DNA from: Hexactinellida sp. DTS-2022
Lineage: Eukaryota; Porifera; Hexactinellida
Length of the DNA stretch: 64,000 bases
Assembly: GCA_028753945.1 (NCBI GenBank)
Contig: JAPNXP010000001.1
Coordinates: 17,226,501 to 17,290,500, forward strand
Direction of reading: 5' to 3'
This document shows, piece by piece, positions 7,451 through 63,451 of this stretch. The notes beneath the pieces were generated by a model that saw only the letters and a list, made by a program, of their open reading frames with translations, was not told the origin of the DNA and ran no database searches. The position numbers and the translations under genes are program-made. Within the stretch, counting starts at the first letter, position 1; every line of letters starts with the position of its first letter.

Positions 7451-7975
7451 TAAAATAGGAGAGCTCTCCATTAATGCTCTGCTCATTACTATAGTATAGA
7501 AATAGCTCTTTCTATGGTACTCGAGAATTTTTAGATACTAAATAATTCGATGGTATTTCAGATACCAAGTTCGGTATGGTAGGTCAGCACATTGTTTTGA
7601 AAAACCTTTGCTTAGAATCATGTAAATAGATCACTTTCTCTCTCTACTATATATTTTAGTATTACAGAAAATACGTTAATTATGATATATAAATCGTGAC
7701 CACTTCACGAGTTATAAGCTCAATGGGAACAAAGAAATAGTAAATTACAGAACTATGTTGATACTGGGTATCAATAGAAAATGTGTTCGTTGATTTATCA
7801 TAAGATCCGAGCTCTCTGGTCTCTTACGCATACAGCAGATCGATAATATGCAATATACTCCCAAGTTGTTATGATCATGGCCTCGGGAGTATCCTTGGGA
7901 AATGCCATAGGTAGAAACTCTCTAGTGAGTATTCACATCACGATGTCGGAGTGTCAGCGGTCCCCCGGGAATGTG

Positions 7976-8470
7976 GCCCTAGGATCAGATTTATCCCTTA
8001 GGGTCAGATGTTCCACTTAGGATCAGATGTCTCCCTTAGGGTCAGATGTCTCCCTTAGGGTCAGATGTCTCCCTTAGGGTCAGATGTGCCCCTTAGGGTC
8101 AGATGTACCCCTTAGGGTCAGATGTCCCCCTTAGGGTCAGATGTCTCCCTTAGGGTCAGATGTCTCCCTTAGGATCAGATGTGCCCCTTAGGATCAGATG
8201 TCTCCCTTAGAGTCAGATGTGCCCCTTAGGGTCAGATGTCCCCCTTAGGGTCAGATGTCTCCCTTAGGGTCAGATGTGCCCCTTAGGGTCAGATGTGCCC
8301 CTTAGGGTCAGATGTCTCCCTTTGGGTCAGATGTGCCCCTTAGGATCAGATGTCTCCCTTAGGGTCAGATGTGCCCCTTAGGGTCAGATGTCTCCCTTAG
8401 GGTCAGATGTGCCCCTTAGGGTCAGATGTCTCCCTTAGGATCAGATGTGCCCCTTAGGGTCAGATGTCTT
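7976..8470. repeat. 19-bp minisatellite, about 26 copies
   Basis: Period 19 bp, consensus close to CTCCCTTAGGGTCAGATGT, with variants CCCCCTTAGG and GATCAGATG. Flanking sequence on its right (8470-8560) recurs in inverted orientation beside the related minisatellite at 34485-34990, so both belong to one mobile family. Confidence 0.9.
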
Positions 8471-8635
8471 CACCTCGGATTCTTCACACTAGGGTTCCAA
8501 AACACTTAAATTTCACAATGCACATCACTATAGTTTTATATTCTACATAAAAGAGTTCCATATCTTCTCAATATATAGGTATTTGTAATAACGTTGTTAT
8601 CAACTATGATCTGTAGCCTAGCCAACAAGGTTGAC

Positions 8636-23278: not shown

Positions 23279-23872
23279 TTATTCTACTAATACTGCTTCT
23301 TGAAAACTGTCTACATTAGCAAAGTAGGTTTTCGTGGTGCTGTTGATCATTTTACACACTGGTGCATAATGAGAGTCAAAATTAGAGATGTATATAGAGT
23401 TGATCGCATTCGTTCTTGAATTATCTGATGATCTAATTCGCGACCATCTTACCTCAAAAGTATCACCTGTACCTGTTTGATTGTAGCGATTAGCTACATA
23501 GACATCGCATTCTAATATTGCTGAAATAGCCATTAATTCCACATCGCCTCCCCATTCGCCTTCCAATGACATGTTGCTCTTTCTTAGGTGTTGTGCTGGA
23601 GTTTTCGAATGAACTTGAACAACATACCAACCCATAGTTTTTCTCCCTTGAGTAATTATATAGCGGCAAATTTCCCCCCTCAACTTAACGTGGTATTCCT
23701 CACTTCCACTAATAACCTTAGAAATACATCTGAATAAGCAGTTCCCATCACCAACGATGTCATCGCACAGTCTTGGTTTAAAATCTTCTAGTTTTTCCCC
23801 ATTTAAGCTGAGTGCTGTTCAATATTCGCGATGAATGGAATTTCCAATATAACGCATTTGTTCTTCAGCCAT
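23279..23872 (-). pseudogene. OTU-type cysteine protease domain of the Ginger element
   Basis: From an ATG at 23872 the frame runs 17 codons to an in-frame TGA (23821-23819), then stays open to 23279. The catalytic Cys motif GDGNCLFRC and the C-terminal His motif (FDSHYAPV), with WGGDVELMAIS between, identify an OTU fold. OTU proteases cleave ubiquitin chains. In Ginger elements such domains occur beside the integrase. The TGA replaces a codon in an otherwise well kept domain, so decay is recent or the stop is a sequence error. Confidence 0.8.
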
Positions 23873-24656
23873 TCAATACTGGGGTAAGAAATAATCGCCT
23901 TTTCAAACTACGTATTTATAAAATTTAAATCACCTGACGTCTGAATTCCGGGCCTTGATCATGCTGTATAATTTTAGGCACTCCCAATATGAAATAAATG
24001 TCTTCTAGCTGACGTATTACTTCTTTTGAAGTTTTTGTTTGGAGTGGGCGAGCTGCAGTAAACTTCGTTAAGTAGCAGGTTGCAACTAGAACGTGTTTAT
24101 AGCCAAGGCTATTTACTGGCAGGTCACAAATTAAGTCGATGCCAATATGTGCCCACGGGCGATCTGGAGGAGGTATGGGGCGAAGCTTTTTCTGGGGTTG
24201 CGGAGGGAGAGTAGCTGTCATCTGGCAGACATGACATGATTTAATCTAGAAATAGATGTGTTAAAATAAATAAATGTTTATGATTTGATCAGCACTATTT
24301 TGAGATATATTCAGGTCACTAAACTATTGTTTATATATTTCAAAATTGTTGGAAATTGGAATCTATACAGTGCAGGTTCTTTTATTATGAACATTCAAGG
24401 GACCAAAAAATGTGTTAATAATAAACACATCTTCTTATTAAGCAGACGAAATATTGTTCATAATAAGCAGACTGACTTATTTACTCAATTATGTGTATAG
24501 GAGAGCACCAGAATATGCATGCGTTAATTAAAGCCGAAAAGTGGTTATGATTAGAATGTACACAAATCGGAACCAACTTACATAATCTTTTATGTCTTTG
24601 TTGAGTCCAAACCAGTAATAATTTTCCTTTATTGCAATAATTGTGGTATTCATACC

Positions 24657-27030: not shown

Positions 27031-28205
27031 CAGTATCTGTGCTAGGAAATTCTCTATTAGCTTTGATTCAGATGAAGTTATCTATTCCAAATGGGGAATA
27101 GAGAGGGCAGAGATTATCAAGAAAAAGCTGAAAACAAATAGGTTTGTTCCTATCGAGTCTAGGGAAGAAAGGGGCTTGTTCAGTTTGCAGCAGTACAAGG
27201 AAATAATGGCAGGCAAGTACCAGATGAACTACAGGTAATACAATTGATTGAAAGTTCCATTCATGTACTATGAATTCGAGTATACATATTGTCTCGAATA
27301 GTAGTATGGGAAATTATTATATTTAAATATTGCTGAGGATGTTTTCAAGGTAAGTAAATTAATGCACCAACTCTACTATTCAACACTCACCACCAATATT
27401 CGTTACTAAAATAAAAATGTATATTTTTTTAAGTTGACTAAAATAAGGAGCAATGTAATTATATACAAATTCCAGTTCTGTTTATTAGGATGGAACGGCA
27501 ATACCCGTACTATATTCCATAGGGGCCTAGAGATTATGAAAGGACCCCTTGACGTTATTGTATTCCAGCAGCTGTTCTGGCAACTGAAGCCTCGTACTGT
27601 TATAGAGCTGGGGACATACAATGGCACGTGTGCTCTTTGGGTTAGCGACACAATGAAACTGATATCTAGTGCCTGTCGAGTATATACCATTGATGTAGAC
27701 AGCTCTCTTGTACTACCGGAGGTGAGAGAGCTAGCAGGAGACTCTGTATCGTACAGGCAGGGAGATGCTAATCATATAGACAGGTATGCACTGAATTGGT
27801 ACTTTATTGATCTATTTATGTACTGTATTGTATGCCCTTAGGGAATTCCCGCCTGATTTTATGAAACACATAGAGCATCCCCTCGTGGTGCTAGAAGACT
27901 GCCATACCAATCTAGAAGGAGTCATAAAATACTTTGACCGATATATGGAGACTGGAGACTATTTTGTGATCGACGATACAAATCCCATTGCTAGCAAGTT
28001 CATGTATCTAGGCGATGAATATACGAATGAACAACCACAATCTCGTGAATATGAACCGTTTGGACCAGGCAAGCTAAACTGTTTGAAAGAAGTGATAAGT
28101 GGAATGGGAGGCAAGTATGCAGTGGACACCTATTTCACAGATATGTTCGGATATAATTCCACTAACAATTGGGACAGTTATCTAAGGAAGATGAAGGACA
28201 ACTAA
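27031..28205 (+). CDS. CmcI-like (cephalosporin hydroxylase family) SAM-binding protein, 5' exon(s) unresolved
   Basis: Proposed exons are 27031 to 27212 or 27234, 27489-27783 and 27842-28205 (stop). The second exon carries a Rossmann-type SAM-binding motif (VIELGTYNGTCALW) and an acidic strand-2 end (VYTIDVD). The third carries VVLEDCHTN, the metal-site-like DxH region of the family, and a conserved VIDDTN segment. Members (Pfam Cephalosporin hydroxylase, PF04989) are mostly bacterial O-methyltransferase-like enzymes with small-molecule or sugar substrates; the substrate here is unknown. Exon 2 to 3 joins cleanly through GT-AG in phase 2. For exon 1 the GT donor at 27235 gives the wrong phase, while a GC donor (CAG/GCAAGT at 27213) fits the frame. 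The exon begins after an acceptor at 27029-27030, so the start codon lies in an unseen upstream exon. Confidence 0.75.
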
Positions 28206-28884: not shown

Positions 28885-29718
28885 CTAATAATGATATTTT
28901 TTCAATGATACTCTAAATCTTCTTTTCTGTTTGATCATACGTATTAATTTAGCTCGAATTTTCATGCGTTGTCGCTTAAATCCAAATTTCCTATTAAACT
29001 TGCGAACAAAAGATTGATAGCTCATTATTCCACAACTTTTTCTATCCACAACTTTGTTGTATTTGGTCCGCTGATTAGTAGGCATAGTGACGTGAACTCT
29101 CGGTAGCAAACCAGATGATTTAAACTGTTTCTTTTTGATAACTTTCTTATCATATAGCGTACTATCACCTCCCGCATTAGTCAATGTGTTCAGTTTGCTA
29201 AGTGAACTAATTGTTTGCTCCTTGGAGTGTTTCTGTTCCTTAAATAAGCGACAAAATTCCAGATCGTACTTATTAAACTCAGCGCTTGCTTTGGCACATT
29301 TTCGAATGTCATATTCATCCCATGGTAGTATTCCTACAGTTTTAGTCTTCTTACACATCATGAAATAATACACACCCTCCAGCACTGCGGATACAGTGTA
29401 GCCAGGCTTCCAGTGTTCAGGATGAAAATTGCTTAGTATGAAACAGATATCCTCGTTTGTTTTGAATTTTCCATTTGGCGTGATAAACTGAATTGAAGGG
29501 GGAGAAAAAGGGAAGGTATAAGGGAACAACAGTTTCCCATAAAACTCTCCTTCGTAGAAAGGTGTCTCTTTAAGTCCGTAGAAAATAAAGTGCCATTCAA
29601 GAATTGACTCTTCTTTGAAGCTAACTTTAATCCTACTTGATGGAGAAGCTTGAATCTTCTTAAATTCTACTAACAGCCTCTTTCTTGCGCGATTTAGAAA
29701 ATGATTATACTGATTCAT
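28885..29718 (-). CDS. E2 ubiquitin-conjugating enzyme, UBE2J/Ubc6-like, 277 aa, with basic tail
   Basis: Single exon from an ATG at 29718. The UBC fold spans residues about 8-165: the FPFSPPSIQF strand, TPNGKF in place of the common HPN motif, and the active-site Cys92 in TNEDICFILSNFHPEHW, an arrangement typical of the J class. That class charges ubiquitin at the endoplasmic reticulum in protein quality control. The usual C-terminal membrane anchor is missing; residues about 185-277 are instead rich in Lys/Arg, suggesting a soluble, possibly nucleic-acid-associated or nuclear protein. It is co-oriented with the RBR ligase 1 kb upstream and the ubiquitin-like gene beyond it. No internal stops. 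Confidence 0.88.
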   Translation of the reverse strand: MNQYNHFLNRARKRLLVEFKKIQASPSSRIKVSFKEESILEWHFIFYGLKETPFYEGEFYGKLLFPYTFPFSPPSIQFITPNGKFKTNEDICFILSNFHPEHWKPGYTVSAVLEGVYYFMMCKKTKTVGILPWDEYDIRKCAKASAEFNKYDLEFCRLFKEQKHSKEQTISSLSKLNTLTNAGGDSTLYDKKVIKKKQFKSSGLLPRVHVTMPTNQRTKYNKVVDRKSCGIMSYQSFVRKFNRKFGFKRQRMKIRAKLIRMIKQKRRFRVSLKKYHY

Positions 29719-30708
29719 AACTTCACAATACTCGAGATTGTACTTATTGAGCTATAATTGAATATAGGTAGATATTATCGCTAACAATCCTGTTAATTCA
29801 GTTTTTCGAATGTTAGTATTAAAAGGCTGGGTTAATAAAGTTAATTTGGAGGTCCAAAATATCTACTAAAATATTTGTAGATACTTTCGAAATGTATCTT
29901 AGAACATTTTGTTTGTTAATTAAGTAATTAGTAGGGACATAAATTTGTTAAGTTGTGACAATTCTAAAGTCTAAGAAGAATATCAAATACCTAAAAAATT
30001 ACCCTTGTGTTTATTTCATCAAATAGTCATTTAGAGTTCAAATTAACCAGGGCTTTTGACGAGTCATCTGAATGACTCAATTACTCGCGAGTAACCACGA
30101 TTCATCGAATCAGACGCGGTGACTCGTGTTACCGATTTATCACGAGTCAGATGACTCGCTGACTTAATTTACAAAGATCGTTATTCATGAAATTCACGAA
30201 TACACGAAATTGGGTTGATTGACTCAATATTAGCATTAATAAATCAAAAGTTCTATAAATCGGGGTGATATTCTGTTAATTGTATCAATTAACGTGTGAA
30301 AAACTATTTATATCACTCGTGTAGTATAATATACTGTACATACTGCAATATGAACGCGTTTACACTGCAACGTCCATATGTATTTATTATAATACTCACA
30401 AAACTATACTATTACTATACTCACAAAATAATACAATTTAGGAAAATTGCGTTCGCCGCTTAATCGGGTAAAACTATCCTTGAATCAAACTGACCTGATA
30501 ATGCGGAGTTGATTTTACTAGACGTATACTATTTCATATTGGCTTTCTAATTTTTGTTACTTGCCTAAGGTTAGAATCAATTAGGGTTTAATATATACTT
30601 ACTGACACTGAATAGATAGTTATAAAAACAATAATGCAACATTTAATCCAAAAAGGTATCAATACACAATAGTCCATATAGGGGAAGTATAATTACTCTT
30701 AAGTATTT
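29719..30708. other. Intergenic, with GACTCG hairpin repeat
   Basis: Non-coding. Around 30050-30165 a cluster of GACTCG/CGAGTC motifs in both orientations forms a MITE-like block, but I could not define both ends. Confidence 0.4.
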
Positions 30709-31548
30709 TTAAAGCTTGAGGAAAGACTTAAATTTATCTTGTATCGGGGCTGGAGTACATAGTAATCTGTTATCCCATGATTCAGTTTTGCAAATAAGAA
30801 CATCGTTTTCTTGTGGCGATAAACAAATGAAGCAGAAAACGTGTTTGCAATTACTACAGGTCATTTCATTGCACAGATCAATATGCTCAACTAGGGAGTA
30901 GCATTTAGGGCATGCTCTCACGCTTGGTGTCTCTATAATTTTCCCTGATCCATTAAAAGTTATATTAGGAGATTCATTAAGTATTTTATCAATGATGTTT
31001 CCACAATTTTTATTGCCACATTGTTTATTATTTTCTTTATTACTCCACTTTCCAAGGCAACTCCAACAAAACAGGTAAGGCTTACGTAGTTTGTTAGTGC
31101 AATAAGCACAGTTTACTTTGGGGTCTTCTGAATCTATTCGCTCACAATAACTCGAGCAATTAGGACACTGCTGTATATCTTCCTTATTAATGAGGTTTAA
31201 TGACAAAGCTGAGGTTAGAAAGTGTTTCTCAGTTCCATCTGGAATTCCAAAATGTATGACATCATCTATATCAATTTTGGTCTTGCAATAGCCACAACAA
31301 ACAGCATAATTTTGGTTCTCAATTTCCGTCCATGCAAGATCCAGAAGGCAATTGGGACAAATGAAATGGTTACACTTCATTTCGTAACCTTCATCTACAC
31401 AGCAAATACAGCAAATTTCAGCTGGATCAGATAGATGTTTTGTTCTATCTGGGTCTCTATTACTTGCAAAATCCTTCTTTCCTTTTCCTCGGACATCAGA
31501 CAATCGAATATTCGATAAATCTAACCCTATTTCTTGAACTGATGCCAT
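30709..31548 (-). CDS. RBR-type (RING1-IBR-RING2) E3 ubiquitin ligase, 279 aa
   Basis: The start is taken at the ATG 31548 (MASVQEIGL); the in-frame extension upstream is hydrophobic, A/T-rich and probably 5' UTR. RING1 spans Cys47-Cys88, the IBR Cys128-Cys182, and RING2 Cys213-Cys242. RING2 reads ACPKC...EHIDLCNEMTC..C....CFIC, so the acceptor Cys of RBR ligases (Cys226, before Asn-Glu-Met) is present. RBR ligases receive ubiquitin from an E2 on this Cys before transfer to substrate. The C-terminal CTPAPIQ motif is shared with the RBR genes at 47635 and 62627, defining one family. It lies between the E2 and the ubiquitin-like gene, all on the minus strand. Single exon and intact. Confidence 0.88.
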   Translation of the reverse strand: MASVQEIGLDLSNIRLSDVRGKGKKDFASNRDPDRTKHLSDPAEICCICCVDEGYEMKCNHFICPNCLLDLAWTEIENQNYAVCCGYCKTKIDIDDVIHFGIPDGTEKHFLTSALSLNLINKEDIQQCPNCSSYCERIDSEDPKVNCAYCTNKLRKPYLFCWSCLGKWSNKENNKQCGNKNCGNIIDKILNESPNITFNGSGKIIETPSVRACPKCYSLVEHIDLCNEMTCSNCKHVFCFICLSPQENDVLICKTESWDNRLLCTPAPIQDKFKSFLKL

Positions 31549-32152
31549 GATAAGACTAATCAAATGATTCCAAAAGCATATAATTGTATCAATAATAAAA
31601 TAATTATTTATCTGGATAGTATAGAATATCATTGATTAATCGTTATTGTTTAGATACTAGTATGTTTTACGCTGTTAAATAAATTCAAATGATTTAACTA
31701 TTATTGATAAATACTAATTAGGAAAAAAGGTTGAGTATTACGGAAAGAAATACCGTACAAAATTACATGCAAGCCGAAGGCCCAAATTCAAGATAGGACG
31801 TTGGTTTGTTGGTTGTATTATTCATCGGTTCATTGGTTAGCAATTCGTTGGTTTATCAAAATATATGTTCAGGAAATCGATAAATTTGCTGCTAAATTTC
31901 TGTAAATGTAAACTGCCAAAGTGAGTTAGAAATTTAAGTAATGTCTGAAAATAGCGACTAATTCAGAAAATGCTAGGTTCTATACATTTTATATTGCATG
32001 TGCACAAATAATACCTTTAAATGTACATTAATACATTTTGAAGGATTTTGTTGAATCGGTCATAATATAAACATAGGGGAGAAATATATACGTAAATAGG
32101 GAGATATTACATTTAGGCGATTGATAGTCACAGTAAAATAAACATTTGCAAA

Positions 32153-32753
32153 TTATTCATTGACACCACCATATAACCTCAGTACCATGGTTATTATAGC
32201 TTTTCCATTGATATTATAATCCGACAATTTCCTAATTTCTCCATTTTTAAAACTTTCAAGATTCTTACCGGCATAAATCAATCGCTGGGTCTCAACTTCA
32301 ACTTCAGACTTGAGAAATATCATATTCTTTAATTCCAAAATAGTGAGATCCTATTTCAGGAAGAAATTAAACAAACAGTGAGAGAAACAACTTAATAATA
32401 AGAAATAAGAATACAGTAATTAATTTGTAAAGTTAAATACAGGTAAAGTAGACTCCGATAAATTGGGTTCTCCACTTAATTAGATCAATATTTTCACAGG
32501 ATGTATTTAACATAATTAAAGTTTGATTGACAATATTTTAGCTTAATTGGTTCAAACCACCCTTGGACAAAATTGGACAATTTAATTGGAGTCAATTGAT
32601 TAGAGAGTGAGAAAGTATAAATTTATCTGAATCGTAAAAATGATAGTATTTGTGACATGTCGTATGTTCTTACCTTTAATTTTCCTTTTTCAATGTTAAT
32701 TGTGTGTGTTTTATTTGCGTGTCCAATGACATATATATAGGTTCAAATTCCAT
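32153..32753 (-). CDS. Ubiquitin-like protein 1, two exons, C-terminal Gly-Gly
   Basis: Exon 2 is 32350-32153. It aligns with ubiquitin from about residue 20 onward: LTILELKNMIF, then TQRLIYAGKNL (compare QQRLIFAGKQL), LSDYNI, and the terminal LRLYGG followed by VNE, so maturation would expose Gly-Gly. Exon 1 ends at 32674 with a GT donor and encodes the first hairpin (IYVIGHANKTHTINI). The ATG at 32753 is in frame only if two bases of the TATATATA tract near 32732-32739 are ignored, so the gene is either frameshifted there, starts elsewhere, or the tract is misassembled. Joining exon 1 to exon 2 is phase 0. The surface insert ESFKNGEI separates it from true ubiquitin. It sits just upstream of an RBR ligase. 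Confidence is high for the fold, moderate for the gene being intact. Confidence 0.78.
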
Positions 32754-35575: not shown

Positions 35576-37935
35576 GTAGGGCAGATTAGCTGATGGATGT
35601 GGACATCCCGGACCAAAGCACCAATTTTTTTCCACATATAGACCATTGCTTGCTTGGGTACTCGATTTTTGGTAGGATCCACTTCCGCCGGATACATCAT
35701 GACCTCCATCTGGCATTTTCAAAATGACCACATTAATATTATTCGGACAAAAGCCCGCATTCACGAACTCATATTAAATGACTTCGTATATGGTTATTAT
35801 ATGCATAGTTGTAATCAGAACAGTGTGCGCTGTCGAAAGATGGGTCACTTGGTAGAGTTGCTATGATTTCTGAGAATGGAATGTTCAACATTCCACCGTT
35901 GTCAAGGAAACTTTTTAATCTGAATATGGTCATGTGACCCCTCTAATTAACGGAAATTCCATGCTGATTACGAATATCTTATTTCTAGATTGGACTAAAT
36001 ATCACTTGAAAAGTTATATTACATTTAGTGGTTAATGATTAGCTAGTAAAAGTAATAAAGTGAGAATTGTGTGAATACTGTGATGGTATACTAAAAATTA
36101 TGGTTCGTACCATGTCACTAAAAATATTGCTTCTCACAGTTACAACTACAAAGTTCTGTGCATATCCAACGCGCTTTTCTGCACGCGCATCTACCGCCAA
36201 AGTCACTTCTACTCTTGAAACTAGATTTTACGAATTCACTGCATGCTTTTGAAGCCACAGGTAAACTGTTCCATACAGGAACCCATGATTGGGTTTTATC
36301 ATCAATAGTCCAGCCCCGACCTTCTGGAGTAGGTACACGTTGTCCAATTTGCTCACTTGTGCACAATATCCCATGCTGATGTGCAACTCGTTTTGAGTGT
36401 TGTAGTAGTGCATCCCGGGTAAGCGGTATTCTCTCCATTGTTTTCTCCTGACAAAATATTTATTTTCTTCCTTCATCCACATACTAAAAATTACTTGCTT
36501 TATCATTTAGAATATCTGTAAAGCGTTCCAGCAGCTAAAAATGCTGAGCATCGAATTCTACTTTTGTATAAGGGTTGAGTGCCATGTAGGTAAAGGCTAA
36601 TGTCACATCATGATAACAGTTTCAAACCTCCCATGCTGACCACTTGCCTCTCCCAAAAAATGCAGATGTAGTATCACATCCCGTGAAACAATGGGAAACA
36701 GGAAGGGCCAGAGATTTCTCTCTTCCTACTTCTTCGTAGATTGCTATGATACGATAGTATGTAAAAGTTCTTTCCTGTACCAAAAGGCTAACCCAAATGT
36801 TCACATTTTTGCATATGGTAATCAAGTGGTGTAACTTTCCATGTCAACTCCGCGCACTAGACATTTAGTATAGTTATTGAGAAGGCATCTTGTAAATGGA
36901 TCAGAAGTCTAGTGTCAGCTTCCCCATGATCACATAGTGCCATAGAACGATCACTTCCTCGAAGAATAGCTGTGACACCAGTCGTGATGATTATTGATAC
37001 TCCTGAGGATGTATATGTCCCATACTAATACTATATCAACTCTTTTTGGTGTTTGATAGTTGGTTAATGATGTATGGGACACGTAGGCGTCAAGTTTTGG
37101 AAATATAATCAAAGATGGGGGGCCACTTGGGGGGTCTGGGGGGGGCCACCGGGAGGTTTACTAAATATTCCAGATTTGTTTCTTCAGAAACTAAATCTGG
37201 ATATAATGAGTAAACAAACGTGATTCTCACCCTCTATCATCCCTTGGTCGATCAAAATGACCACTTTCATATAAAATATAAATCAACCGACAGGCCCGGG
37301 AGTCGCCCCCCCCCCGAAATCCCAAAATTGGCGCCTATGATGGGACAAATACTTGATTAGCATAAAGTCCGCTTTATTTTATTTTGGCTGCATAGAAAAT
37401 TGAAACGAAGGGACATGATAGATAAATTTATGGCATATCAACTTTTCATTCTTAAGCTAGCTAATCATTAACCCTAAATGTAATATAACTTTTCAAGTGA
37501 TATTTAGTCCAATCTAGAAATAAGATATTCGTAATCAGCATGGAATTCCGTTAATTAGAGGGGTCACATGACCATATTCAGATTAAAAAGTTTCCTTGAC
37601 AACGGTGGAATGTTGAACATTCCATTCTCAGAAATCATAGCAACTCTACCAAGTGACCCATCTTTCGACAGCGCACACTGTTCTGATTACAACTATGCAT
37701 ATAATAACCATATACGAAGTCATTTGATATGAGTTCGTGAATGCGGGCTTTTGTCCGAATAATATTAATGTGGTCATTTTGAAAATGCCAGATGGAGGTC
37801 ATGATGTATCCGGCGGAAGTGGATCCTACCAAAAATCGAGTACCCAAGCAAGCAATGGTCTATATGTGGAAAAAATTTGGTGCTTTGGTCCGGGATGTCC
37901 ACATCCTTTCAAAATATGGGCTTAAGCTGCCCTAC
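35576..37935 (-). mobile_element. Element with ~460-bp inverted arms around a TE-protein remnant
   Basis: 35576-36049 and about 37455-37935 are nearly identical in inverse orientation. The same open frame (containing PDGGHDVSGGSGSYQ) appears in both arms. The 1.4-kb centre holds remnants of a transposon protein (36118-36825). Outer borders and target duplication were not resolved. Confidence 0.7.
36118..36825 (-). pseudogene. Remnant of an uncharacterised metazoan transposon protein
   Basis: Minus-strand pieces 36825-36622 (HCFTGCDTTSAFFGRGKWSAW) and 36438-36118 (GWTIDDKTQSWVPVWNSLP, then a Cys-rich tail with CRKARWICTELCSC). These two motifs, I recall, occur in one repetitive metazoan protein of unknown function. 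Stops and frame changes between the pieces show decay. Confidence 0.55.
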
Positions 37936-41272: not shown

Positions 41273-43176
41273 TTCCCACTTCGTCAATTCCCATTTCGTC
41301 AATTCCCATTTCGCCAATTCGCACTTCGTCAATTCCCATTTCGCCAATTCTCACTTCGTCAATTCCCATTTTGTCAACTTGCTATTTCTTCAATTCCCAC
41401 TTCGTCAACGTTGACGAAATGGGACATAATTACTAGACTACAAGTAAACTCAAATAGGTTAAATAATTATTGAGAAAACACGTTAACACAACTCAACAAA
41501 ACACTCAAAATATCAATTATCTATTTGCTAAATTATTTGCTATGCTGAGCAAATATTCATCGATATCCAATTCACCGCGCGTATATTTCTGACGTAAATT
41601 TTCAATCCTACATTCTAGTGCAATGTACATCTTCTTCTTTGGTGGAGCTAGTGCACCAGCTTGTAGTTGGATAATATCAATATCAATTACAGCTTGTTCT
41701 TTTGTAATAAATTGCATCAATTGATAAATATTAGGATGCCGCCTTCCCAAAAAGCTGTTCAATCTATTGTGCCATCCCTCTAGATGGTTATTTGTGCGAG
41801 GTCCATTCGAGTCGAAAACGTTCCACAAATCAGGTTTGAACGTTCCATTTATCCACGTCCTGTCCATATAATCTATAAATTCGCCAACATTGAGGCCCTC
41901 AGGTGTATCTGCACAAAGTGACTGGAACGCAATGCTTACTTCCCACTCAGGAATGAAAGCAAGTGCCATCATCTCTCGTATAAATACCCTAAATTGATCA
42001 TTGTTCAAGTACTCGGTTTGATAACCTAGACTTTGAACTTTCCTCCAGATTGCTTGAGAAAAATGATAAAAACAACCTTTATGCTTGGATCCTGGAAATT
42101 GAATTGCAATTGATGGGATCAAAGAACTTTCAAAGTCTGACATTATTCTCCTTGGATTCATTTGAAAGTTGCTATTCCAACAAGCTTCTTTCAGCATATG
42201 AAACATTCGATCATATAAAATTCTTGTCTTTCCAGGTAGAAGAACACAAACAAACGGGAATTGTTTCCCCTCTACGAAAGCATGGAGAGTGAAGAGCTGA
42301 TAAAATAAATCTGGACATGATTTGAAAGTTCCATCGAGATAAATACAGTCCGAGTTACATAATATTTCCAAATTTTTCTTTGTTGCAAACATTATAATTC
42401 TTTCAGGATCATTCTCACCAGAGTCTGCAAGAAGCATGTCTTCCCCTTGAATAGTACGAGTCCAATCACCACCAAAAGTAATATCTTGAATAGTTTGTGG
42501 TAGTGAAGGATATTTTGTCATCCGGCCTCGATAAAGTGACGATTTTATAGCGGGAAACTGTGGTAAATTGATCGCTAATTCTGAATGTTCGACTCCTTCA
42601 TACCCTGAAACAGCCGCTATTTCTTCAGCATATATTTTAGAGATTGATGTAGTTTCTTCAATAGCTCTTTTTCTCATTTTTCTTATTACAGTCTGTGCAG
42701 TAATCTTCGCCATACTGGGAGGATGATGATGAATTCCTGACACGTTAATCACAATGTCATCATCCATACTTATCCTCCCATTACAGCTCCTATCTTGACA
42801 TCTCCACCATGACTTAGGACCATTAACTCGAATTTTCTGATACAAATATCCTTCATGGATACTGCACGTTTTCCCTTTGTCGTCTCGGCGAACATGCAAA
42901 CCAGGTAAATATATTTAATAACAATTAGCAAGATATACTTTCATTGCTTGTACACTGATTATATAAGAAAATAACCATCGGTGAAGCCCCAGTAGGTGAC
43001 AAAGGTAACTATTCACCATTGAACAATTGTTTTTGAGCGTTATACATAAACTATTATGTGTATACAAGTTCCCATTTAGTCAACGTTGACGAAATGGGAA
43101 TTGACGAAATATGAAATTGACGATATGGGAATTGACAAAATGGGAATTGACGAAATGAGAATTGACGAAGTGGGAA
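41273..43176 (-). mobile_element. MULE transposon with tandem-repeat TIRs
   Basis: 1.9 kb. The left arm (41273-41425) and right arm (43071-43176) are inverted arrays of a ~14-bp unit (TTCGTCAATTCCCA). Each ends inside with the palindrome GTCAACGTTGAC. Between them lies one intact transposase gene. No clear 9-bp target duplication was seen. Confidence 0.82.
41517..42899 (-). CDS. FLYWCH-MULE transposase, about 460 aa, apparently intact
   Basis: Open from about 42914; the first codon usable in frame near the 5' end is not ATG, so the true start may be in a short upstream exon or at an alternative codon. N-terminal FLYWCH-type zinc finger (WWRCQDRSCNGRI ... GIHHHPP). The MULE DDE core shows Asp189 (CIYLDGTFKSC), Asp255 (IMSDFESSL), the CxxH pair (CFYHF, 276-279) and Glu374 (TNNHLEGWHNRL). 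Such enzymes cut and paste DNA between their TIRs. No stop or frameshift across the domain, so it could be active or recently so, and could mobilise the non-autonomous elements with similar ends. Confidence 0.88.
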   Translation of the reverse strand: MHVRRDDKGKTCSIHEGYLYQKIRVNGPKSWWRCQDRSCNGRISMDDDIVINVSGIHHHPPSMAKITAQTVIRKMRKRAIEETTSISKIYAEEIAAVSGYEGVEHSELAINLPQFPAIKSSLYRGRMTKYPSLPQTIQDITFGGDWTRTIQGEDMLLADSGENDPERIIMFATKKNLEILCNSDCIYLDGTFKSCPDLFYQLFTLHAFVEGKQFPFVCVLLPGKTRILYDRMFHMLKEACWNSNFQMNPRRIMSDFESSLIPSIAIQFPGSKHKGCFYHFSQAIWRKVQSLGYQTEYLNNDQFRVFIREMMALAFIPEWEVSIAFQSLCADTPEGLNVGEFIDYMDRTWINGTFKPDLWNVFDSNGPRTNNHLEGWHNRLNSFLGRRHPNIYQLMQFITKEQAVIDIDIIQLQAGALAPPKKKMYIALECRIENLRQKYTRGELDIDEYLLSIANNLANR

Positions 43177-47634: not shown

Positions 47635-48462
47635 CTACAATTTAGTCTGTATTGGAGCAGGAACACACGTTACACCGATAATAACATTATAACTCACACT
47701 CTGGCAACCAAGACTCCCTCCACTTGCTACAGATAAGCAAATGAAACAAAACTTAGTACTGCATTTGCAACATGTCATTGTGTTGCATTCGGTAGTATGC
47801 TCGATAAGAGTAGTACATCTCTTGTTTGGACACGCTCTACATTTCGGAATGGATATAGTTTTTCCTTTAGCATCAGTAAAATCCTTCTTAGGACAACTCA
47901 TCAATGTTTCAATGCTCTCTCTCATACAATTTGCATTTCCACAAACTTGATGGTTTCCCATATTCCTCCATTTCTTCAAACAGTACCAACAAAACATGAA
48001 GGGATTTCCTACTATTTTCGAGCAAATTGTACAATGAACTTCTGCAGTGTCAGGATTTTGTCTTGAGCATAAAGTGCGACACTGTGGACATTCCTGAATA
48101 TCTTGACTCTCATAGAAGTTTGTGGTTATTGCAGTTGTAAGGAAAAGTTCTTCTTCCTTATTAGGAAGTCCAAATTGAATTATATCTTCAGGAGAGATTA
48201 TTTTAGAACATTTTGTACAAGTAATCTCATATTTCATCACTGCTACCTGAAGCCACGCGTGGTCGAGGAGATCGTTTGGACAAATGTAATGTCCACATTT
48301 CATTTTTAGCCCATCATCTTCAAAACAAACACTACATTCACCTTTAGGATGGATAAAAGATACTTTTCTATTTTGATCTCGTAAAGGAGCAAATAGCATA
48401 TGACATCTTCTAGCTTCGGTAAATATAATGTGTTTTTCATCAAATGGGTTAGCTAGAGCCAT
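47635..48462 (-). CDS. RBR-type E3 ubiquitin ligase 2, 275 aa
   Basis: Single exon from ATG 48462. RING1 (Cys43-Cys85), IBR (Cys125-Cys179), RING2 (Cys211-Cys242) with acceptor Cys226 in EHTTECNTMTC. C-terminal CVPAPIQ motif as in the 30709 gene. One RING1 zinc ligand is Asp64 (CPNDL) where the 30709 gene has Cys66 (CPNCL); Asp can bind zinc, so RING1 may still fold. Roughly 85% identical to the gene at 62627, with the catalytic and zinc residues kept and most changes in linkers, which suggests both copies are under constraint. The ubiquitin-like gene 2 lies 1.8 kb upstream on the same strand. Confidence 0.88.
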   Translation of the reverse strand: MALANPFDEKHIIFTEARRCHMLFAPLRDQNRKVSFIHPKGECSVCFEDDGLKMKCGHYICPNDLLDHAWLQVAVMKYEITCTKCSKIISPEDIIQFGLPNKEEELFLTTAITTNFYESQDIQECPQCRTLCSRQNPDTAEVHCTICSKIVGNPFMFCWYCLKKWRNMGNHQVCGNANCMRESIETLMSCPKKDFTDAKGKTISIPKCRACPNKRCTTLIEHTTECNTMTCCKCSTKFCFICLSVASGGSLGCQSVSYNVIIGVTCVPAPIQTKL

Positions 48463-49010
48463 ACTAAGTGCACAGTGTAATACAATAAATAATAATTAAT
48501 TAATGTTTCTAATAATGATAGAGAATCAATACAATCCAAAGTATAATATTATAGGCACTTTCTACAAACGAAATATTGTCATAAGTGATACCTCAGCTCA
48601 TTAGCTTATAAAGGATAATATTACTTAAGACCAGTACCAAACAGGGGCATAGGAAGGTGTTTTAGAGTGGCCTGGTACAAATCTGTAAATTAAAATTATA
48701 TTCCAAAGATATTAGATCCTTCCGCCTTACTTTAATCAAACGTCCAGCCCAGAGTTGGAATCGGGTCCACATCCAGCCCAAATCTATCAAGAATAATGTT
48801 ATATTAATTTGTCCCCCTATAAAATCGTTACGGGAAGTATTTTCTACTTTAGCATAAATGAACAGAGATATAGTAAATGTAAGTACATGTATACTAGATT
48901 AACTAGAAAGATCTAGAACAGTGGAACATTTGACACTGGAAGTCGACCTGAAATTGATTGGAAATTGGAATTAGTTAAGAGCCAAGATACTTGAAGTTAG
49001 ATTAGATTTA

Positions 49011-50300
49011 GATGCTGGATGTCTGGTAGACTTTTTGGCTCAGAAATTCCTGGATAACCCCCTGTTACTATTCCGTACAAATTTACGGTCACGATATATG
49101 TTATAAAATGTCTATTGATTCTAATTTTATTTTGTTTTGTTTGAATTCCAATTCAATTTTTATCCCTATGTTGTAATCAACATTTCAATCAAAACATTAT
49201 GGTCAATACGAATTCTATATACGAGAGTAAAATTTATCAGTACCCTATTTAGAGTAGCCAAAAAATTAGATTAATTGATTCAATTCAAGCACCTTTAAAA
49301 TGTATCCTTTAGGTGGTTAATCATGGCTGATACGTTGGATTTTGGAATTAGCACTGCACTATATCCAAAAATAGACTAATTGCTTTAAAAAAAGAATAAA
49401 CACAATTTTTTAAAATCTACCTGTAGATAAAAATGTACAATTAATGTTGCTAGTAAATGATAACTATAACTATTCATGATATAAATTTGTAAATCTGAAA
49501 TTCGAAAATCAGCATACTTATTTACCTTAACAACATTTGGGAAAAACGCTTTTATAATGGGATCCCTGGGAGGGACCCCATTAATATGCATTTGTATTTT
49601 CCAAGTACTTTACCACAGTACATACAAGAACACAAAAAGTCGAGAAATATTAACAATAAAGATTTAAATCATTATGCTAATTTATAATGAACTATTAATA
49701 TAAATAGGTTGGTTACACTAATTGAGTTAAGAAAACTACTGAAAAATATAAACCCTATAAACTCAGTGACCGACGAAGAGCGATATTATTCGGCGCTAGG
49801 GGAGTCTTAAAATGCAGATCCTGCACTTTGAACAGGCAATTAAGTAGACATTATGACCAATAGTTATATTGACCGTAAACGTTTGGAATACAATTAGTTA
49901 ATAAAAAATCAGAAAAATTAGAATTGTTAAAGTGATGTGAATTATTTTTTAACTAAATCAGCAACTCAATTATGGCACAAACTAAGCCCAATATTAAAAT
50001 TTGTGCACTACTAAAAGATGTAGTAGTATGATAATATCTATCGATTGCATTTAAATGAATAGTCGCCACTATTTATATTATTTATGTTATGAACTTAACG
50101 AGGAGTTAAAACGTCCCAAAATAAAACAGCTAAAAATATACAAATTTCAGCAACCATCAATTAAACTCTGTTCTCAGGAGAGGATACACATTAATGTATA
50201 ATTAATAACTAATAATTAAAATCGATCTTCAAGGGAAAATTACATTCATCAAATAATATTTGAAATGTCTACTGGATGTTCATTGCAATAAGAATAAAGT
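49011..50300. repeat. Intergenic with a stray array unit and rolling-circle fragment
   Basis: 49420-49600 resembles the inner body of the rolling-circle family. 49940-50200 matches array sequence around 18085-18360 (GCAACTCAATT...CACAAACTAAG, AAACTCTGTTCT). No gene seen. Confidence 0.55.
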
Positions 50301-50309
50301 ATTTCAGAA

Positions 50310-51320
50310 TTAACAACCTCCTGGTAATCTAACGACTAATACAATATTTGACCCTTCATGAATTCCATAATCTGAGAATATCATCACTTTACCACCTTGA
50401 TTGACTTCTAGTTCTTTAGAGCAGTGGAGCAGTCGTTGTTGTTCTACACTAATACCAGTTGATGTCTGCACTCTAACTTTCAGGTCCGAAATTGTAAAAT
50501 TCTAAACATAATAAGTTAATAATGACGGAACACACAATTTAATACCAATAGTAAAGCAATTTTTTGGGTGGGGATCGCCCGCCTATGCACTCCATACATA
50601 AGCTTTTTAAATAAAAATGATAGCTAACTACATTGGTATTTCTCATTAGAAGCACTACTCTAAAGTAATTAATTTGGAAATACTAATTTAGCAAGCCCCG
50701 GTATTGTGAATATATACATAGTATGTAAATTTAGCAAACAATTTCCTAGATAATAGTACTTGTCCGTAGCAATAATCTACTATAAAAAATTACTACTAAG
50801 AAATTGTACAACTCCGTGGGCCCCTAACTTTGGGCTGTGGAGAACAGCTATTGTATTAACTGGTATATAGCTAGTGACCCGTCGCCATTTAAATTCCACA
50901 AAGGGCTGTTAGAATAGGCGTGAGTTTATCTGATAATTATGCAAACATACATATAACACTATGTAAAGTATAAATGCGCAATATGGAACAGGCTCAATTT
51001 ATTCAAGATTTTGCAAACACAGCCTGATACAGCAAAGCCGCTTAATCGGGAGACGGATAAGTGGAATTACATTAACCAGTTCGAAGTTTGGGAAAGAAAT
51101 TCCTGCCTATTGCATAATTTACAGTTATTAATTGGAGAATTAGACAAGTGAAATAGAATTCCTCTCCAGATGCGTTCGATAAAGAGACTTAAACATTATT
51201 AGTTTAATTTTGATTGTAATAAATTATAATAAGGATTAAATATTAAACCTTCATCTTGGTCTTTTCAATAGGAATAGTTCGTGTCTTTCCTTCTAAGCCA
51301 GAAATATATATGTTGTTCAT
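50310..51320 (-). CDS. Ubiquitin-like protein 2, two exons, 87 aa, C-terminal Gly-Gly-Cys
   Basis: Exon 1 is 51320-51249 (24 codons from ATG, MNNIYISGLEGKTRTI...), exon 2 is 50501-50310 (63 codons). The junction is phase 0 with a GT donor and a TTTAG acceptor. The first residues mirror the ubiquitin hairpin (I-x-V...GKT.T). Exon 2 has SDLKVRV, then EQQRLLHCSKELEV (compare DQQRLIFAGKQLED), FSDYGIHEGSNIVLVVRL, and ends PGGC. Thus one residue follows Gly-Gly, as in ubiquitin precursors. Both exons are too short to stand out in an ORF scan. The reading frame is clean. It is a divergent ubiquitin-fold modifier rather than ubiquitin itself, most similar in build to the protein at 32153. It lies upstream of and co-oriented with RBR2. 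Confidence 0.85.
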
Positions 51321-53027: not shown

Positions 53028-56000
53028 CATAGCCTACTAAAGACAGGCCTCACAGTAGAATGGTGTTTTTGGACCAGGGATGCGGTCGAAGCCGAACAAT
53101 GAAGTATACTTTATATCATGTTTGGTGGCAAATTATAATACATAGTGGTAGAAAAAACACTTTCAACCCCCGAATGTATAGGGGTAGAAGGTATAAATAG
53201 AAAAATCCCATTTTCACTTTCAATTTTAATTGAAAGTGAATTAACTTCCGGTTTACTTTCACATTCCTGGGCATTGGTTAATTAATTAATTAACTTGTTA
53301 AATTGTCCAAAACTGATCTCTACATTTTAGAATAAACTGGCTAATATGATTTACATGTATAATACATTACAAACCTATCAGTAAAGCACTGATTACTAAT
53401 ACAATTCAAATTAAATCAAACTGTATATAATGTTTAATTCATAGTTATAAGTTAATAACTAACATCTCAATGATGATTAAACAAATAAAACCACAAACAA
53501 TTACATAGTAGTATACATATACTTCTAATCAATCAAACAACATATATTGAGGTTAGAGTTGGTGTAAGAATGGCCGCGCTTAACTTCAGAATTAAACAGA
53601 AATAGATTAAATAGAACATAAATAAGATATTAAAATATTAATACATGAATTAAGAGTTGAATTTCTTTAACTCTCGTTTTCATTTCCTTTACTTACAACA
53701 ATTGAATTATAATTTTTTACTTGATTTGCTAATAAGCAATTTCCAGCAACGAATAACAGCCTACGCAGAATTGGAACTCTAAAAACATCGCAAGAAGGAC
53801 ATGAATTGCTCCAAAGCTACAATCATGGTTATCCACTATAGAACTTAGAGCCAGATCAACTAGAATTTTCCTCGCTGGACCTTCGATGCAGACATCAGTT
53901 CGCCATTTTTTTGGATGATAGAGAATATCTTCCAGAGATTGACTATTGATTCCAAAACAACGACCGATGGATATTTAAGGTTCCCACGATCAGAGAGTTC
54001 TAAAAGCTTATACTGAGAGTCTAAGGATTCATCAACTAGTAAATCTTTATCGAAGGTTAATATATCAAGACATAAGCGACATGCTGGATTTCGTTTAAGG
54101 TACTGGTGAGTAGAGTATCCTGCAATGAAAGCTAACGATTGGAGAGTTGGTGTATCGCAATGAATAATTGAAAGGTTTGATATTTCATCAAAGAAAGGCT
54201 CAAGGTTAACACAACTTTCGGAAAAGGAACCCTCTTTCGATGAAAAGGACTGAATAAATTCATGTAGAGAATAATTATCAGAATCAGGCAGGTTGGAAAA
54301 TAGTTTTAATATGTTAGGAAGTTTCAGACGCCGCTCGCTTTCTAAGATTTGAAGATAGGTAACATGAAAATTAGAACCTGACATCATGCGATAAAGTCCA
54401 AAATGATGTTCTAAAGGGTCTGTTTGCAAGAAAGATGTTAAGAGGTAAGAATAGCCACACTTTTCTGTTAGATGATTTGTTACCTGAGGTAACACAAGGC
54501 AAGCGTGTCTAAGGCTAGTGAAGGTTTGTTTACTTAATTTCCCATCTTTCCCCGGGAGTGATTGACAAGCTTCTATCCAATAGACTATTCTAGTCAAAAA
54601 AGAGAAGCGCTCATCATTGAATGTAAATGGTCGAGATAATGGGTCATTTAAACGAACATGCTTATAAGGCACATTTACATTGAAAATTTTCCATAAAGAG
54701 AGTAGAATGTCAACAAATTCTGAAGTGTTACTATTAAATGCTGAACAACGTTGATCGTTTTGAATAGCTAGTGCAGCAACTGTAGACTCGTGAATGACTT
54801 TCAAAACTAACTTGACATTCTGTCGTTCTAAACTAGAAGGATAACAAGATTTCAAAGTCAAGCGTGGAGCTAGTTTCGCCAAACTTGCTTTCTCAGAATT
54901 ATAGAGTGTAAGAATATCATTAAAAGAAGTACAACACAACCTTAGAGGGTATGAACAAGAATAAATTTGGATGTCCATTAAATTAGGAAAAATGAAATTT
55001 TACTATGAGACTTCAGATTCAACCAATTGTTTCGAATTGTTTTTAATATGTGTACAAGATCAAAGGTAAGAAACAACACTCTATGAATATCACAAGGATG
55101 AGGAACTCGACATTCCAGTTCAACATTAGGAGAGAACAGCTTGAAAAGTTTCACGTTGAGAGGATAGTTGTCCGTCGAGATTATCTGAACGAACAAGCCA
55201 CAAGCCCCAACATCTCGAATACATGACTTAACTATGGCAAATATTTTCTCTGCAGATAAAGACGCACAAGGCAAGAGACGAACAACACAGGACCATTTTT
55301 TATAAAAAGACTAGAAACCATGATTGCGAATACTGTTTTTGTAGGATCATCCGGACAGATATTAGGACCAATTATTTTGCCACCTTTGTAGAATATATCG
55401 GGCTTTACATGTATTTCGTCCATTTGAAGAATAACATTCTTTTGCTCATTAGAAAAAGAATGCGTTGCTTGTTTCAGAAAGGGGAAAAAATCGCTTTCAA
55501 GTCCAAAAGAAGAATCAGCTTTTCCAAAGTATTGAAGTGAGGAAGGGATAAACAAGACATATGCTGTAGATACTTATAGCAAGCTGGAGAGATCAGGTGT
55601 GTTTTAAGAGACAGTATCTGTGTTAGGATGTTGTATCTACGCCTGTTTTTTGGAGCGAGGCTGTTTTCTAACTGGCATTGAATGAAATGAAGTCTACTAA
55701 GTTCTGGACACTCGTCTGATTCTAAGTCGGTAGAAGAAGTATTCAGACTGTCGATCGCTTTTTGGATGTGTATTTTTGCTAATAAAATATGGGACGCAGT
55801 AGTGGAATCATTTTTCTTCGAGGATTCACAGGGGAGTGACTTTATAGATATTTCATTCAGAATTGATTCAAGTTGTCGAATATCACTTAGAGAAATTATC
55901 GAAAGTGGAGAAATCTCACCCTTACAAAACGCTCGAACGGATAGATCAAATTTTACTAGCAAGTAAGAATCGATAATAACACAAGAATTATTTAAACTAG

Positions 56001-56787
56001 GACGCATTAAAATTAGACTATATTCATCAGGATACCATAATGACCAAGTTTTAGGTAGAGAAAGAAATGATAACTTATCTTGCATATCCTGGAAACTATT
56101 AATCTTGAACTTTTGTGCTTCCTCAGCGTCTGACTTCAGGCTAAGTAATAAGGCTTGAGAGAACAATTCATCTTCCTTTGAGTCGAATGACAAACGACTG
56201 CGCTTTGTGACAATTTGAGAATAGTAGCTGGGGCAGCCTGGTAGAAAAACTGGCACAGCATCATCTTTAAGCTTGGGGTTCACACGTGGAACTTCGCGAA
56301 ATGTACCGTCTCCATTGGGAACCCTATGTGAGTACTCGACATCTTCTTCTCTGAAATTGCTTCACGCAAATGTAAATTGCCTTCAGTTCATATATATCGT
56401 CTCTGCGAATTGCCCGAATCCAAGCTTGTCTGAGTGGTTCAGGTTTCTGGGGCATCTTAAAAAGAGTAAGGCGATCTCCTGATTTGTAATTGCTTTTGCA
56501 ACCTGGAGCCGAACAACTGGTTGGCATCTTTAGATTAATAGCTAGCTAAATACACAAGAAATTCAATACTTAATGGACAACTAAGTACGACTACAAGAAA
56601 TACACATAAACAGTGTAGATTGTTTTTGAATAAGCTTATAATATCATGATAAAATATAAACTATATGGGTGTATCTAAATAGTTTTTGGTCATAATAGAT
56701 TGTGGTTGAATACTATATCCCGGCTTCGACCGCATCCCTGGTCCAAAAACACCATTCTACTGTGAGGCCTGTCTTTAGTAGGCTATG
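53028..56787 (-). mobile_element. P-element-type transposon, 3.76 kb, perfect 67-bp TIRs
   Basis: 53028-53094 and 56721-56787 are exact inverted copies starting CATAGCCTACTAAAG. They are flanked by GTACAAC (53021-53027 and 56788-56794), a 7-bp duplication (8 bp is usual for P). It encodes a THAP-type transposase on the minus strand. Perfect TIRs argue for a recent insertion. Confidence 0.93.
53860..56527 (-). pseudogene. THAP domain P-element (THAP9-like) transposase, frameshifted
   Basis: From ATG 56527: a THAP zinc finger (MPTSCSAPGCKSNY..., AWIRAIRRDD, ICVK). It is broken by one extra A near 56362, at the His of the C2CH set. The open parts that follow are 56333-55520, 55555-55300, 55300-54990 and 54978-53860, each displaced by a single base (near 55520, 55298 and 54995), three of the four at short A or T runs. 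The core shows QMDEIHVKPD (first Asp), STDNYPLNVKLFKLF (second Asp region), VPHPCDIHR, the GTP-binding-like middle, and DPLEHHFGLYR (Glu). No stop occurs within the corrected segments, so either it died very recently or the single-base gaps are assembly errors. Confidence 0.85.
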
Positions 56788-57716: not shown

Positions 57717-57798
<82 letters not shown>

Positions 57799-61445: not shown

Positions 61446-61484
61446 ATCCGTCGCAAAGCGACCGAGACCGATTGACTTGGACAC

Positions 61485-62626: not shown

Positions 62627-63451
62627 CTACAATTTAGTCTGTATTGGAGCAGGGACACACTTTATACCGATAGAATTATAACTCTTACTCTTGCAATCAA
62701 GACTCCCTCCACTTGCTACAGATAAGCAGATAAAACAAAACTTAGTACTGCATTTGCAACATGTCATTGTGTTGCAGTCGACAGTATGCTCGATAAGAGT
62801 AGTACATCTCTTGTTTGGACACGCTCTCCATTTCGGAATGGATATTATTTTCCCATTATCATCAGAAAAATCCTTCTTAGGACAATTTCTCAATGTTTCA
62901 ATGCTCTCTCTCATACAATTTGCATTCCCACAAATTTTATGGTTTCCCATATTTTTCCATTCCTTCAGACAGTACCAGCAAAACATGAAAGGATTTCCTG
63001 CTTTTTTCGGGCAAATTGTACAATGAACTTCCGGAGTATCAGTCCTCTGTCTTGAGCATAAAGTACGACACTGTGGACATTCCTGAATATCTTGACTCTC
63101 ATAGAAGTTTGTGGTTATTGCAGTTGTAAGGAAAAGTTCTTCTTCTTTATTAGGAAGTCCAAATTGAATTATATCTTCAGGAGATATTATTTTAGTACAC
63201 ACTGTGCAGGTAATCTCATATTTCATTACTTCTACTTGATGCCACGCGTGGTCGAGGAGATCATTTGGACAAATGTAATGTCCACATTTCATTTTTATCC
63301 CATTAACTTCAAAACATACACTACATTTATCTTTAGGATGGATAGAAGATACTTTTCTATCTTGATCTCGCAAAGGAGCAAATAGCATATAACAGCTTCT
63401 AGCTTGGGTAAATATTTTATCTTTTTCATCAAATGGGTTAGCGAGGGCCAT
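62627..63451 (-). CDS. RBR-type E3 ubiquitin ligase 3, 274 aa
   Basis: Single exon, ATG 63451, same architecture as the gene at 47635: RING1 with CSVCF...KCGHYICPNDL (Asp at the same zinc position), IBR CPQCRTLC...CGNANC, RING2 ACPNKRC...EHTVDCNTMTC with the acceptor Cys kept, and CVPAPIQTKL at the end. Intact. If the duplication extends past the window, a third ubiquitin-like gene may lie about 2 kb further right. Confidence 0.88.
   Translation of the reverse strand: MALANPFDEKDKIFTQARSCYMLFAPLRDQDRKVSSIHPKDKCSVCFEVNGIKMKCGHYICPNDLLDHAWHQVEVMKYEITCTVCTKIISPEDIIQFGLPNKEEELFLTTAITTNFYESQDIQECPQCRTLCSRQRTDTPEVHCTICPKKAGNPFMFCWYCLKEWKNMGNHKICGNANCMRESIETLRNCPKKDFSDDNGKIISIPKWRACPNKRCTTLIEHTVDCNTMTCCKCSTKFCFICLSVASGGSLDCKSKSYNSIGIKCVPAPIQTKL

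Follow-up and report, generated by a model that had tools for sequence, protein, structure and literature searches.

A 64,000-nucleotide stretch of contig C1 of the glass sponge Hexactinellida sp. DTS-2022 (contig JAPNXP010000001.1, C1:17226501-17290500; hereafter the window) carries on its minus strand an E2 conjugating enzyme gene, an RBR (RING1-IBR-RING2) E3 ligase gene and a gene for a ubiquitin-like protein (Ubl), side by side. This unit belongs to a larger cluster on C1 in which Ubl and RBR genes, in some cases followed by an E2 gene, recur in the same order. The larger pattern is real and is undescribed in the literature listed in our search: none of the results examined describes a Ubl-RBR-E2 cluster, and the word "ubiquitin" is absent from the main texts of two glass-sponge genome papers (PMC10282587, PMC10280926).

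We give close to an even chance to the explanation that these units are a lineage-specific glass-sponge cassette for Ubl conjugation, duplicated many times and made up of a small Ubl with an RBR downstream of it, followed in some units by an E2 derived from UBE2J2. We observe the set of genes and the order in which they recur, their catalytic residues, standalone Ubl models in a relative and probable linkage elsewhere; processing, charging, transfer and co-expression within the cassette are our inference. A protease would trim the 1-8 residues that follow Gly-Gly, and the general ubiquitin-activating enzyme (E1), UBA1, would charge an E2 on its active-site cysteine (Cys92 here), the linked E2 being used in the E2-bearing units. 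RING1 of the RBR would then bind the charged E2, and the Ubl would pass to Cys226 of RING2 and from there to the substrate. R72 is the E1-selecting residue of ubiquitin, and UBA1 should accept the Ubl because the equivalent arginine is kept; we propose UBA1 followed by a linked or general E2 since a search for E1 domains gave two loci (on C13 and C15) and the R72 equivalent would suit UBA1. The final steps would follow the known route of RBR ligases, which transfer ubiquitin by transthiolation to the RING2 cysteine (PMC5758712).

In animals, ubiquitin-pathway genes are normally scattered, and linked sets of modifier and enzymes are known chiefly from prokaryotes. The ubiquitin operon of Caldiarchaeum subterraneum and the bacterial Cap2/Cap3 CBASS systems likewise place the genes of one Ubl cascade side by side; as described in PMC5654768 and PMC10097602, they belong to prokaryotes and comprise an E1 or E1/E2 homologue, whereas the sponge units lie on an animal chromosome, contain an RBR as the ligase and have no E1 found nearby. 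If the cassette explanation is true, repeated Ubl-RBR(-E2) units in early-branching animals would be a natural test case for the co-evolution of E3 and modifier, each unit would offer a matched modifier and ligase to assay, and operon use by glass sponges that trans-splice would become testable.

Recurrence of the unit on C1 and probable linkage in other records

In window coordinates, the members of the cluster and their parts are as follows:

28885..29718, minus strand: E2 gene, UBE2J2/Ubc6-like; catalytic domain at residues ~11-168, Cys92, very basic C-terminal tail
30709..31548, minus strand: RBR E3 ligase, 279 aa; catalytic Cys226 in RING2
32153..32350, minus strand: Ubl exon 2; ends LRLYGGVNE-stop; Pfam ubiquitin 1.7e-7 over 61 aa
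32351..32673, minus strand: Ubl intron; donor GTAAGA, acceptor AAATAG; position and phase as in paralogues
32674..32745, minus strand: Ubl exon 1, 72 nt, placed by homology; TGA (32743-32745) where paralogues have the start Met
32751..32753, minus strand: ATG from which the original prediction began the Ubl; not in the exon 2 frame, TAA before the donor
47635..48462, minus strand: second RBR of the family in the window; open frame
50310..50501, minus strand: second Ubl in the window, exon 2; ends VVRLPGGC-stop
51249..51320, minus strand: second Ubl in the window, exon 1 with ATG; MNNIYISGLEGKTRTIPIEKTKMK
62627..63451, minus strand: third RBR of the family in the window; open frame; its Ubl is at C1:17292021, 1.5 kb beyond the window end

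The searched genome comprises 112.4 Mb in 18 contigs. With the window RBR as query, we found 13 loci on C1 (12.80, 13.38-13.41 and 17.18-17.39 Mb) plus a weak match on C6. Exon 2 of the Ubl also gave 13 loci on C1, together with four on C12, polyubiquitin arrays and a few weak rows. The cluster counts exclude the C6 RBR match (27-28% identity), Ubl rows outside C1 and more distant E2s; the Ubl loci at 17314363 and 17178496 enter the pairing count by position, sequence having been read for the other 11. An RBR lies on the same strand within 5 kb downstream of 10 of the 13 C1 Ubls. Those without one in that distance are 13399613 (nearest at 10.4 kb), 17314363 (11.4 kb, a further Ubl intervening) and 17202037. 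The Ubl/RBR layout is no chance arrangement. The window itself holds members that the original prediction did not mention, namely a second Ubl-RBR pair (47635-51320), open throughout, and the third RBR.

Window-type E2s on C1 number four, the window's included (17.20, 17.255, 17.332 and 17.385 Mb), all within 210 kb. Three of them sit 1.0, 1.2 and 2.4 kb 3' of an RBR, and the fourth lies 3' of a Ubl that lacks its RBR; a stop-riddled copy of this E2 is carried on C16. A second full Ubl-RBR-E2 unit, with three open frames, occupies 17.3316-17.3416 Mb, ~72 kb from the window unit. Its Ubl (METIYILGLEGK...RLPGGISKE) has an intron of ~4 kb, its RBR is 273 aa long, and its E2, of 481 aa, has a C-terminus that is hydrophobic by eye. 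Modifier, E3 and E2 are thus adjacent and on the same strand in the window unit, whose Ubl start is lost, and in the 17.332-Mb unit; since these two full units are only 43-47% identical to each other, the Ubl-RBR-E2 arrangement is old.

Decayed copies are found at 17.202, 17.302/17.308 and 13.400/13.410 Mb, in addition to the window Ubl. One further RBR relative (C1:17388067-17388748, minus strand) keeps RING1 and RING2 and has lost most of the IBR, with an E2 2.4 kb downstream. Ratios of nonsynonymous to synonymous change (dN/dS) were obtained by simple counting with no test against 1. Of seven RBR pairs, one is saturated and the other six range over 0.28-0.66; of four Ubl pairs, one shows a single difference and the others give 0.42, 0.19 and 0.35. 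For the E2 they were 0.50 and 0.29 in two older pairs and 0.78 against its 90% identical duplicate. The cluster genes are under loose constraint, which fits fast turnover.

Among named species, the glass sponge Oopsacas minuta supplies the nearest relatives of the RBR and Ubl proteins. All four close E2 matches (P0001-P0004, out of six matches) share the longest contig size listed for them with RBR matches (295295, 609915, 1158691 and 617270 bases), and the size 609915 is also that of five Ubl exons. Equal size probably means the same contig and hence E2-RBR linkage in other records. To place the window RBR, we used a tree of 47 RBRs, comprising 11 of the 13 from this genome (the broken 17.302 and the IBR-less 17.388 copies were omitted) and 36 of 40 matches (the partial P0039, P0042, P0043 and P0046 were omitted, and P0013 entered by its RBR part only). 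It falls in a clade with 100/99 support together with P0023, P0035 and P0038, whose contigs match in size those of the E2s P0001, P0004 and P0002. Identity is 84% between the window RBR and P0023 and 77-78% between the window E2 and P0001. Conserved linkage in related genomes, one of the checks named with the original prediction, is probable: judged by equal contig size, a window-type RBR apparently lies beside a window-type E2 on three contigs.

The three genes of the window unit

The E2 and the RBR are intact and carry the cysteines that the original prediction named, Cys92 and Cys226. The E2 frame matches Pfam UQ_con at 6e-15; Cys92 is invariant in 11 of 11 aligned E2s. Against solved structures, its top match is UBE2J2 (3.4e-35, over residues 11-168), and among solved E2s the UBE2J2 and yeast Ubc6 entries rank first (3e-35 to 6e-33), the next match standing at 6e-15. 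The catalytic-domain alignment and the conserved active-site cysteine tie the enzyme to the UBE2J2/Ubc6 family, from which it differs in its C-terminus: from residue 161 the tail has an isoelectric point of 11.2, with 33 Lys/Arg versus 5 Asp/Glu, and this basic tail takes the place of a membrane anchor, none being visible by eye (no anchor-prediction program was run). Unlike the window E2, an E2 homologue on C11 and the 17.332-Mb paralogue end in hydrophobic stretches, also by eye. NCBIfam, a prokaryote library, assigned no family to the window E2 or RBR. Adjoining the E2 is an open reading frame (ORF) resembling CmcI / rhamnosyl O-methyltransferases, enzymes known chiefly from bacteria (27434-28205, plus strand; of two overlapping frames, the first gives the Pfam match).

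The RBR frame is open to 31632, with a better start at 31548 (MASV...), the first Met common to the paralogues. Within the ORF, Pfam detects IBR domains only (8.4e-8); RING1 and RING2 are recognised by their cysteine pattern, and the IBR by both pattern and Pfam. Cys226 of RING2 is present and is invariant in 24 of 24 aligned sequences, while a paralogue at 13.410 Mb, outside that alignment, has lost the catalytic cysteine. The best sequence match is ARIH2 (3.2e-7). An AlphaFold model of moderate confidence (pLDDT 73.5) retrieved HHARI first in Foldseek (1.6e-7), and also ARIH2 and parkin, with low TM-scores. The window protein thus shares with known RBR ligases (ARIH1/2, parkin, HOIL-1, RNF216) the RING1-IBR-RING2 cysteines and the catalytic cysteine of RING2; the sponge RBRs differ from them in their size of ~270-280 aa and their tandem expansion.

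The Ubl gene had been read as intact from the ATG at 32753 to a Gly-Gly end. Its second exon is indeed of the ubiquitin family, but that ATG is in the wrong frame and meets a TAA before the donor. Scanning with exon-1 peptides, we found instead a matching 72-nt phase-0 exon in the window with a score of 68, the best of five shuffles of one locus, which served as the null, scoring 35. Across ten loci, the start position of exon 1 is ATG in eight, TGA in the window copy and ACG in the 17.308-Mb copy, and the window exon has no in-frame ATG at all. A frameshift in mid-exon was considered and rejected, for the full 72-nt exon can be aligned in the same frame as exon 2, with only the start codon missing. 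The closest duplicate, at C1:17.202 Mb, has internal deletions in exon 2, no RBR and an E2 block that is 93% identical; no exon-1 match was found there within the 1.5 kb searched. Given the TGA at the start position, the lack of an in-frame ATG and the decay of the nearest duplicate, the window Ubl is most likely a relic of recent origin; the alternative is an indel in the assembly at this point. With a start-less Ubl of their own, the RBR and E2 of the window unit would need the Ubl of a neighbouring unit or ordinary ubiquitin. What remains of the three genes side by side on the minus strand is two intact genes and a third that is homologous but start-less.

Free modifier, fusion or by-product

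Of the 11 Ubl copies read, ten reach a stop 1-8 residues after R-L-x-G-G, and the copy at 13.400 Mb departs from this with VPGW. Such short tails would be improbable as read-through into an intron: at the local stop frequency of 0.069, p is 0.009 for six groups from this genome and 1.2e-5 when ten groups from relatives are added. The grouping was our own, with P0054, P0056, P0057 and near-copies within the genome merged; P0051 (a tail of 21) and P0061-P0065 (not clearly sponge) were omitted, and matches were limited to ~45-150 aa. In O. minuta, three standalone Gly-Gly-ending Ubl proteins of 89-92 aa are annotated, in an annotation that dropped genes of <100 aa with null transcript coverage (PMC10280926). 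The structure model of the O. minuta Ubl P0047 has a ubiquitin fold (pLDDT 89.4), with ubiquitin as the top Foldseek matches (TM 0.77); the protein is 33% identical to ubiquitin and has equivalents of Arg72 and Lys48. The sponge Ubls resemble ubiquitin, NEDD8 and ISG15 in fold, in their standalone models, in starting at beta-1 and, as read at the DNA level, in probably ending R-L-x-G-G plus a short tail; P0047 differs in having RLPGG for RLRGG and a longer loop after beta-2, and the sponge Ubls have many paralogues adjoining RBR genes. Related Ubls at C12:5.93-5.94 Mb (L034, L036 and L041) carry GG internally, and a C-terminal domain of ~150 aa that contains cysteines comes after it in a single uninterrupted ORF.

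Several findings weigh against a conjugation cassette. E2 is present in three or four units, so that most Ubl-RBR pairs have no linked E2, and the Ubl of the reported unit has lost its start codon. The catalytic-cysteine domain of E1 (PF10585) was found on C13 and C15 only, a search that misses E1s without this domain. The dN/dS of the E2 against its 90% identical duplicate is 0.78, and UBE2J2-type E2s are enzymes of the endoplasmic reticulum (ER) and ER-associated degradation rather than classic RBR partners. P0051, a transcript-derived Ubl (non-assigned EukProt), has a 21-residue tail. Other points hint at fusion of Ubl and RBR: the O. minuta model P0013 (LOD99_11374, 399 aa) is a fused Ubl-RBR in which ...VVRLP is joined to ETMADVNP... 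with Gly-Gly removed, and P0045, a distant homologue, reads Ubl-PGG-linker-RBR as one ORF. Moreover, all ten Ubl copies compared use GGT for the second Gly, a codon that makes up 44 of 159 (28%) Gly codons tallied over RBR and E2 genes; over six groups this invariance has a probability of ~4.5e-4, by our own arithmetic and noticed after the fact. Because this codon is always GGT, a latent G|GT splice donor may lie inside Gly-Gly, which hints at a fused isoform. The dedicated conjugation set of the original prediction survives in part: it is favoured by the recurrence of the order ~72 kb away, the 10 of 13 paired Ubls, the apparent E2-RBR linkage on contigs of other records and the standalone O. 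minuta Ubls, and disfavoured by the start-less window Ubl, the E2-less pairs, the confinement of E1-domain matches to C13/C15 and the fused P0013.

The strongest alternative, although unlikely, is that Ubl and RBR form one gene, in the style of HOIL-1 or parkin, in which a splice out of the Gly-Gly codons into an acceptor close to where the RBR begins makes the Ubl a regulatory domain and not a modifier; in an alternative-splicing version, both free Ubl and fusion would be made. In parkin and HOIL-1, as in P0013 and P0045, the Ubl precedes the RBR, and in the sponge cluster the Ubl is likewise upstream on the same strand in ten close pairs (our script scanned for that layout only; we saw no opposite-strand pair by eye). 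Close to the start of 8 of 11 RBR copies there are YAG acceptors in a compatible phase that leave the frame open, which, like the invariant GGT, favours this reading. We had taken the donor sequence as an argument against fusion and have withdrawn it: exon-1 donors at ten loci are GTAAG/GTGAG in six, GTTTA in three and GTAAC in one, so four of ten are not GTRAG either, and a weak donor at Gly-Gly is compatible with such variation. That withdrawal, together with the P0051 tail, moved our assessment slightly from cassette toward fusion. Yet the remaining 3 of 11 RBR copies (17.180, 17.289 and 17.323 Mb) have no such acceptor from -300 to +60 of the RBR start, although fusion is thereby contradicted for one pair alone, since only 17.289 has a partner Ubl that was read (17.292). 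Unlike the HOIL-1/parkin, P0013 and P0045 fusions, the sponge Ubl exon stops shortly after Gly-Gly in 10 of the 11 copies, and three O. minuta models are standalone. No precomputed ubiquitin Pfam domain is present in 39 of 40 RBR matches, among which fusions of up to ~479 aa were eligible; 12 of the 40 were read, and single-exon predictions would hide spliced fusions. On these sequences, a free Ubl is more likely the main product, possibly with a fused isoform besides.

We regard as doubtful the bolder proposal of a self-contained, fast-evolving second ubiquitin system, in which linked and duplicated modifier-RBR-E2 units each have their own modifier variant, possibly in a trans-spliced operon and plausibly serving defence.

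Rather improbable, in our assessment, is that tandem duplication in a fast-evolving region produced the units as a side effect, with the RBR and E2 using ordinary ubiquitin and the Ubls acting as decoys, inhibitors or non-covalent activators of the RBR. Local amplification with decay, seen in several broken copies and the window Ubl, would fit this scenario, as would the rarity of E2 among the units and the location of the E1-domain matches. However, linkage is retained between units that are 43-47% identical and, by equal contig sizes, in other records, and 10 of the 11 copies keep Gly-Gly, for which a decoy would have no use.

Least probable is that Ubl, RBR and E2 are co-transcribed as polycistronic units and separated by spliced-leader trans-splicing, an arrangement compatible with the other readings. 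Glass sponges do trans-splice leaders, of ~37 bases in Aphrocallistes vastus (PMC10282587), and the genes share a strand with short gaps between them; however, the same paper gives predicted leaders on only 4% of A. vastus long reads, operons are unreported in hexactinellids according to PMC7986045, and one unit has a Ubl intron of ~4 kb. Several Ubl and RBR copies have a YAG <=25 nt before the Met codon, but by a rough estimate chance alone would place one there in about half of cases, and we dropped this motif as proof of trans-splicing for that reason. An operon is possible but unsupported.

Deubiquitinases and other features of the window

We also looked for a deubiquitinase that might match the cluster. 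The genome has 61 USP matches, none near 17.2-17.4 Mb of C1; elsewhere on the contig there is a tandem array of nine USP-type deubiquitinase domains (G000 C1:15023836-15068355, minus strand). Within the window, an OTU-like peptidase ORF stands beside an integrase-like ORF recognised by eye (23279-24245, minus strand), probably forming a retroelement that carries OTU. The peptidase (23279-23818) was considered as the matching deubiquitinase and set aside as a probable retroelement part, because the integrase-like ORF is directly upstream on the same strand.

Near the cluster, a stop-to-stop ORF of 433 residues (4779-6080, plus strand) has TRAF-type zinc fingers and a sub-threshold Pfam match to MATH. 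Transposon-related sequence includes an ORF of 465 residues with MULE transposase and FLYWCH domains (41517-42914, minus strand) and long ORFs at 53860-56361 (minus strand) that are probably of transposon origin; the one tested (53863-54999) has a weak, sub-threshold TNP-like match. Three sets of repeats were also noted: a 19-base array at 7882-8581; an inverted repeat at 35595-35955 / 37546-37906, with arms of 361 bases that are 99% complementary and spaced by 1590 bases; and a 142-base tandem array with inverted relatives at 57793-59090 and 61007-61860.

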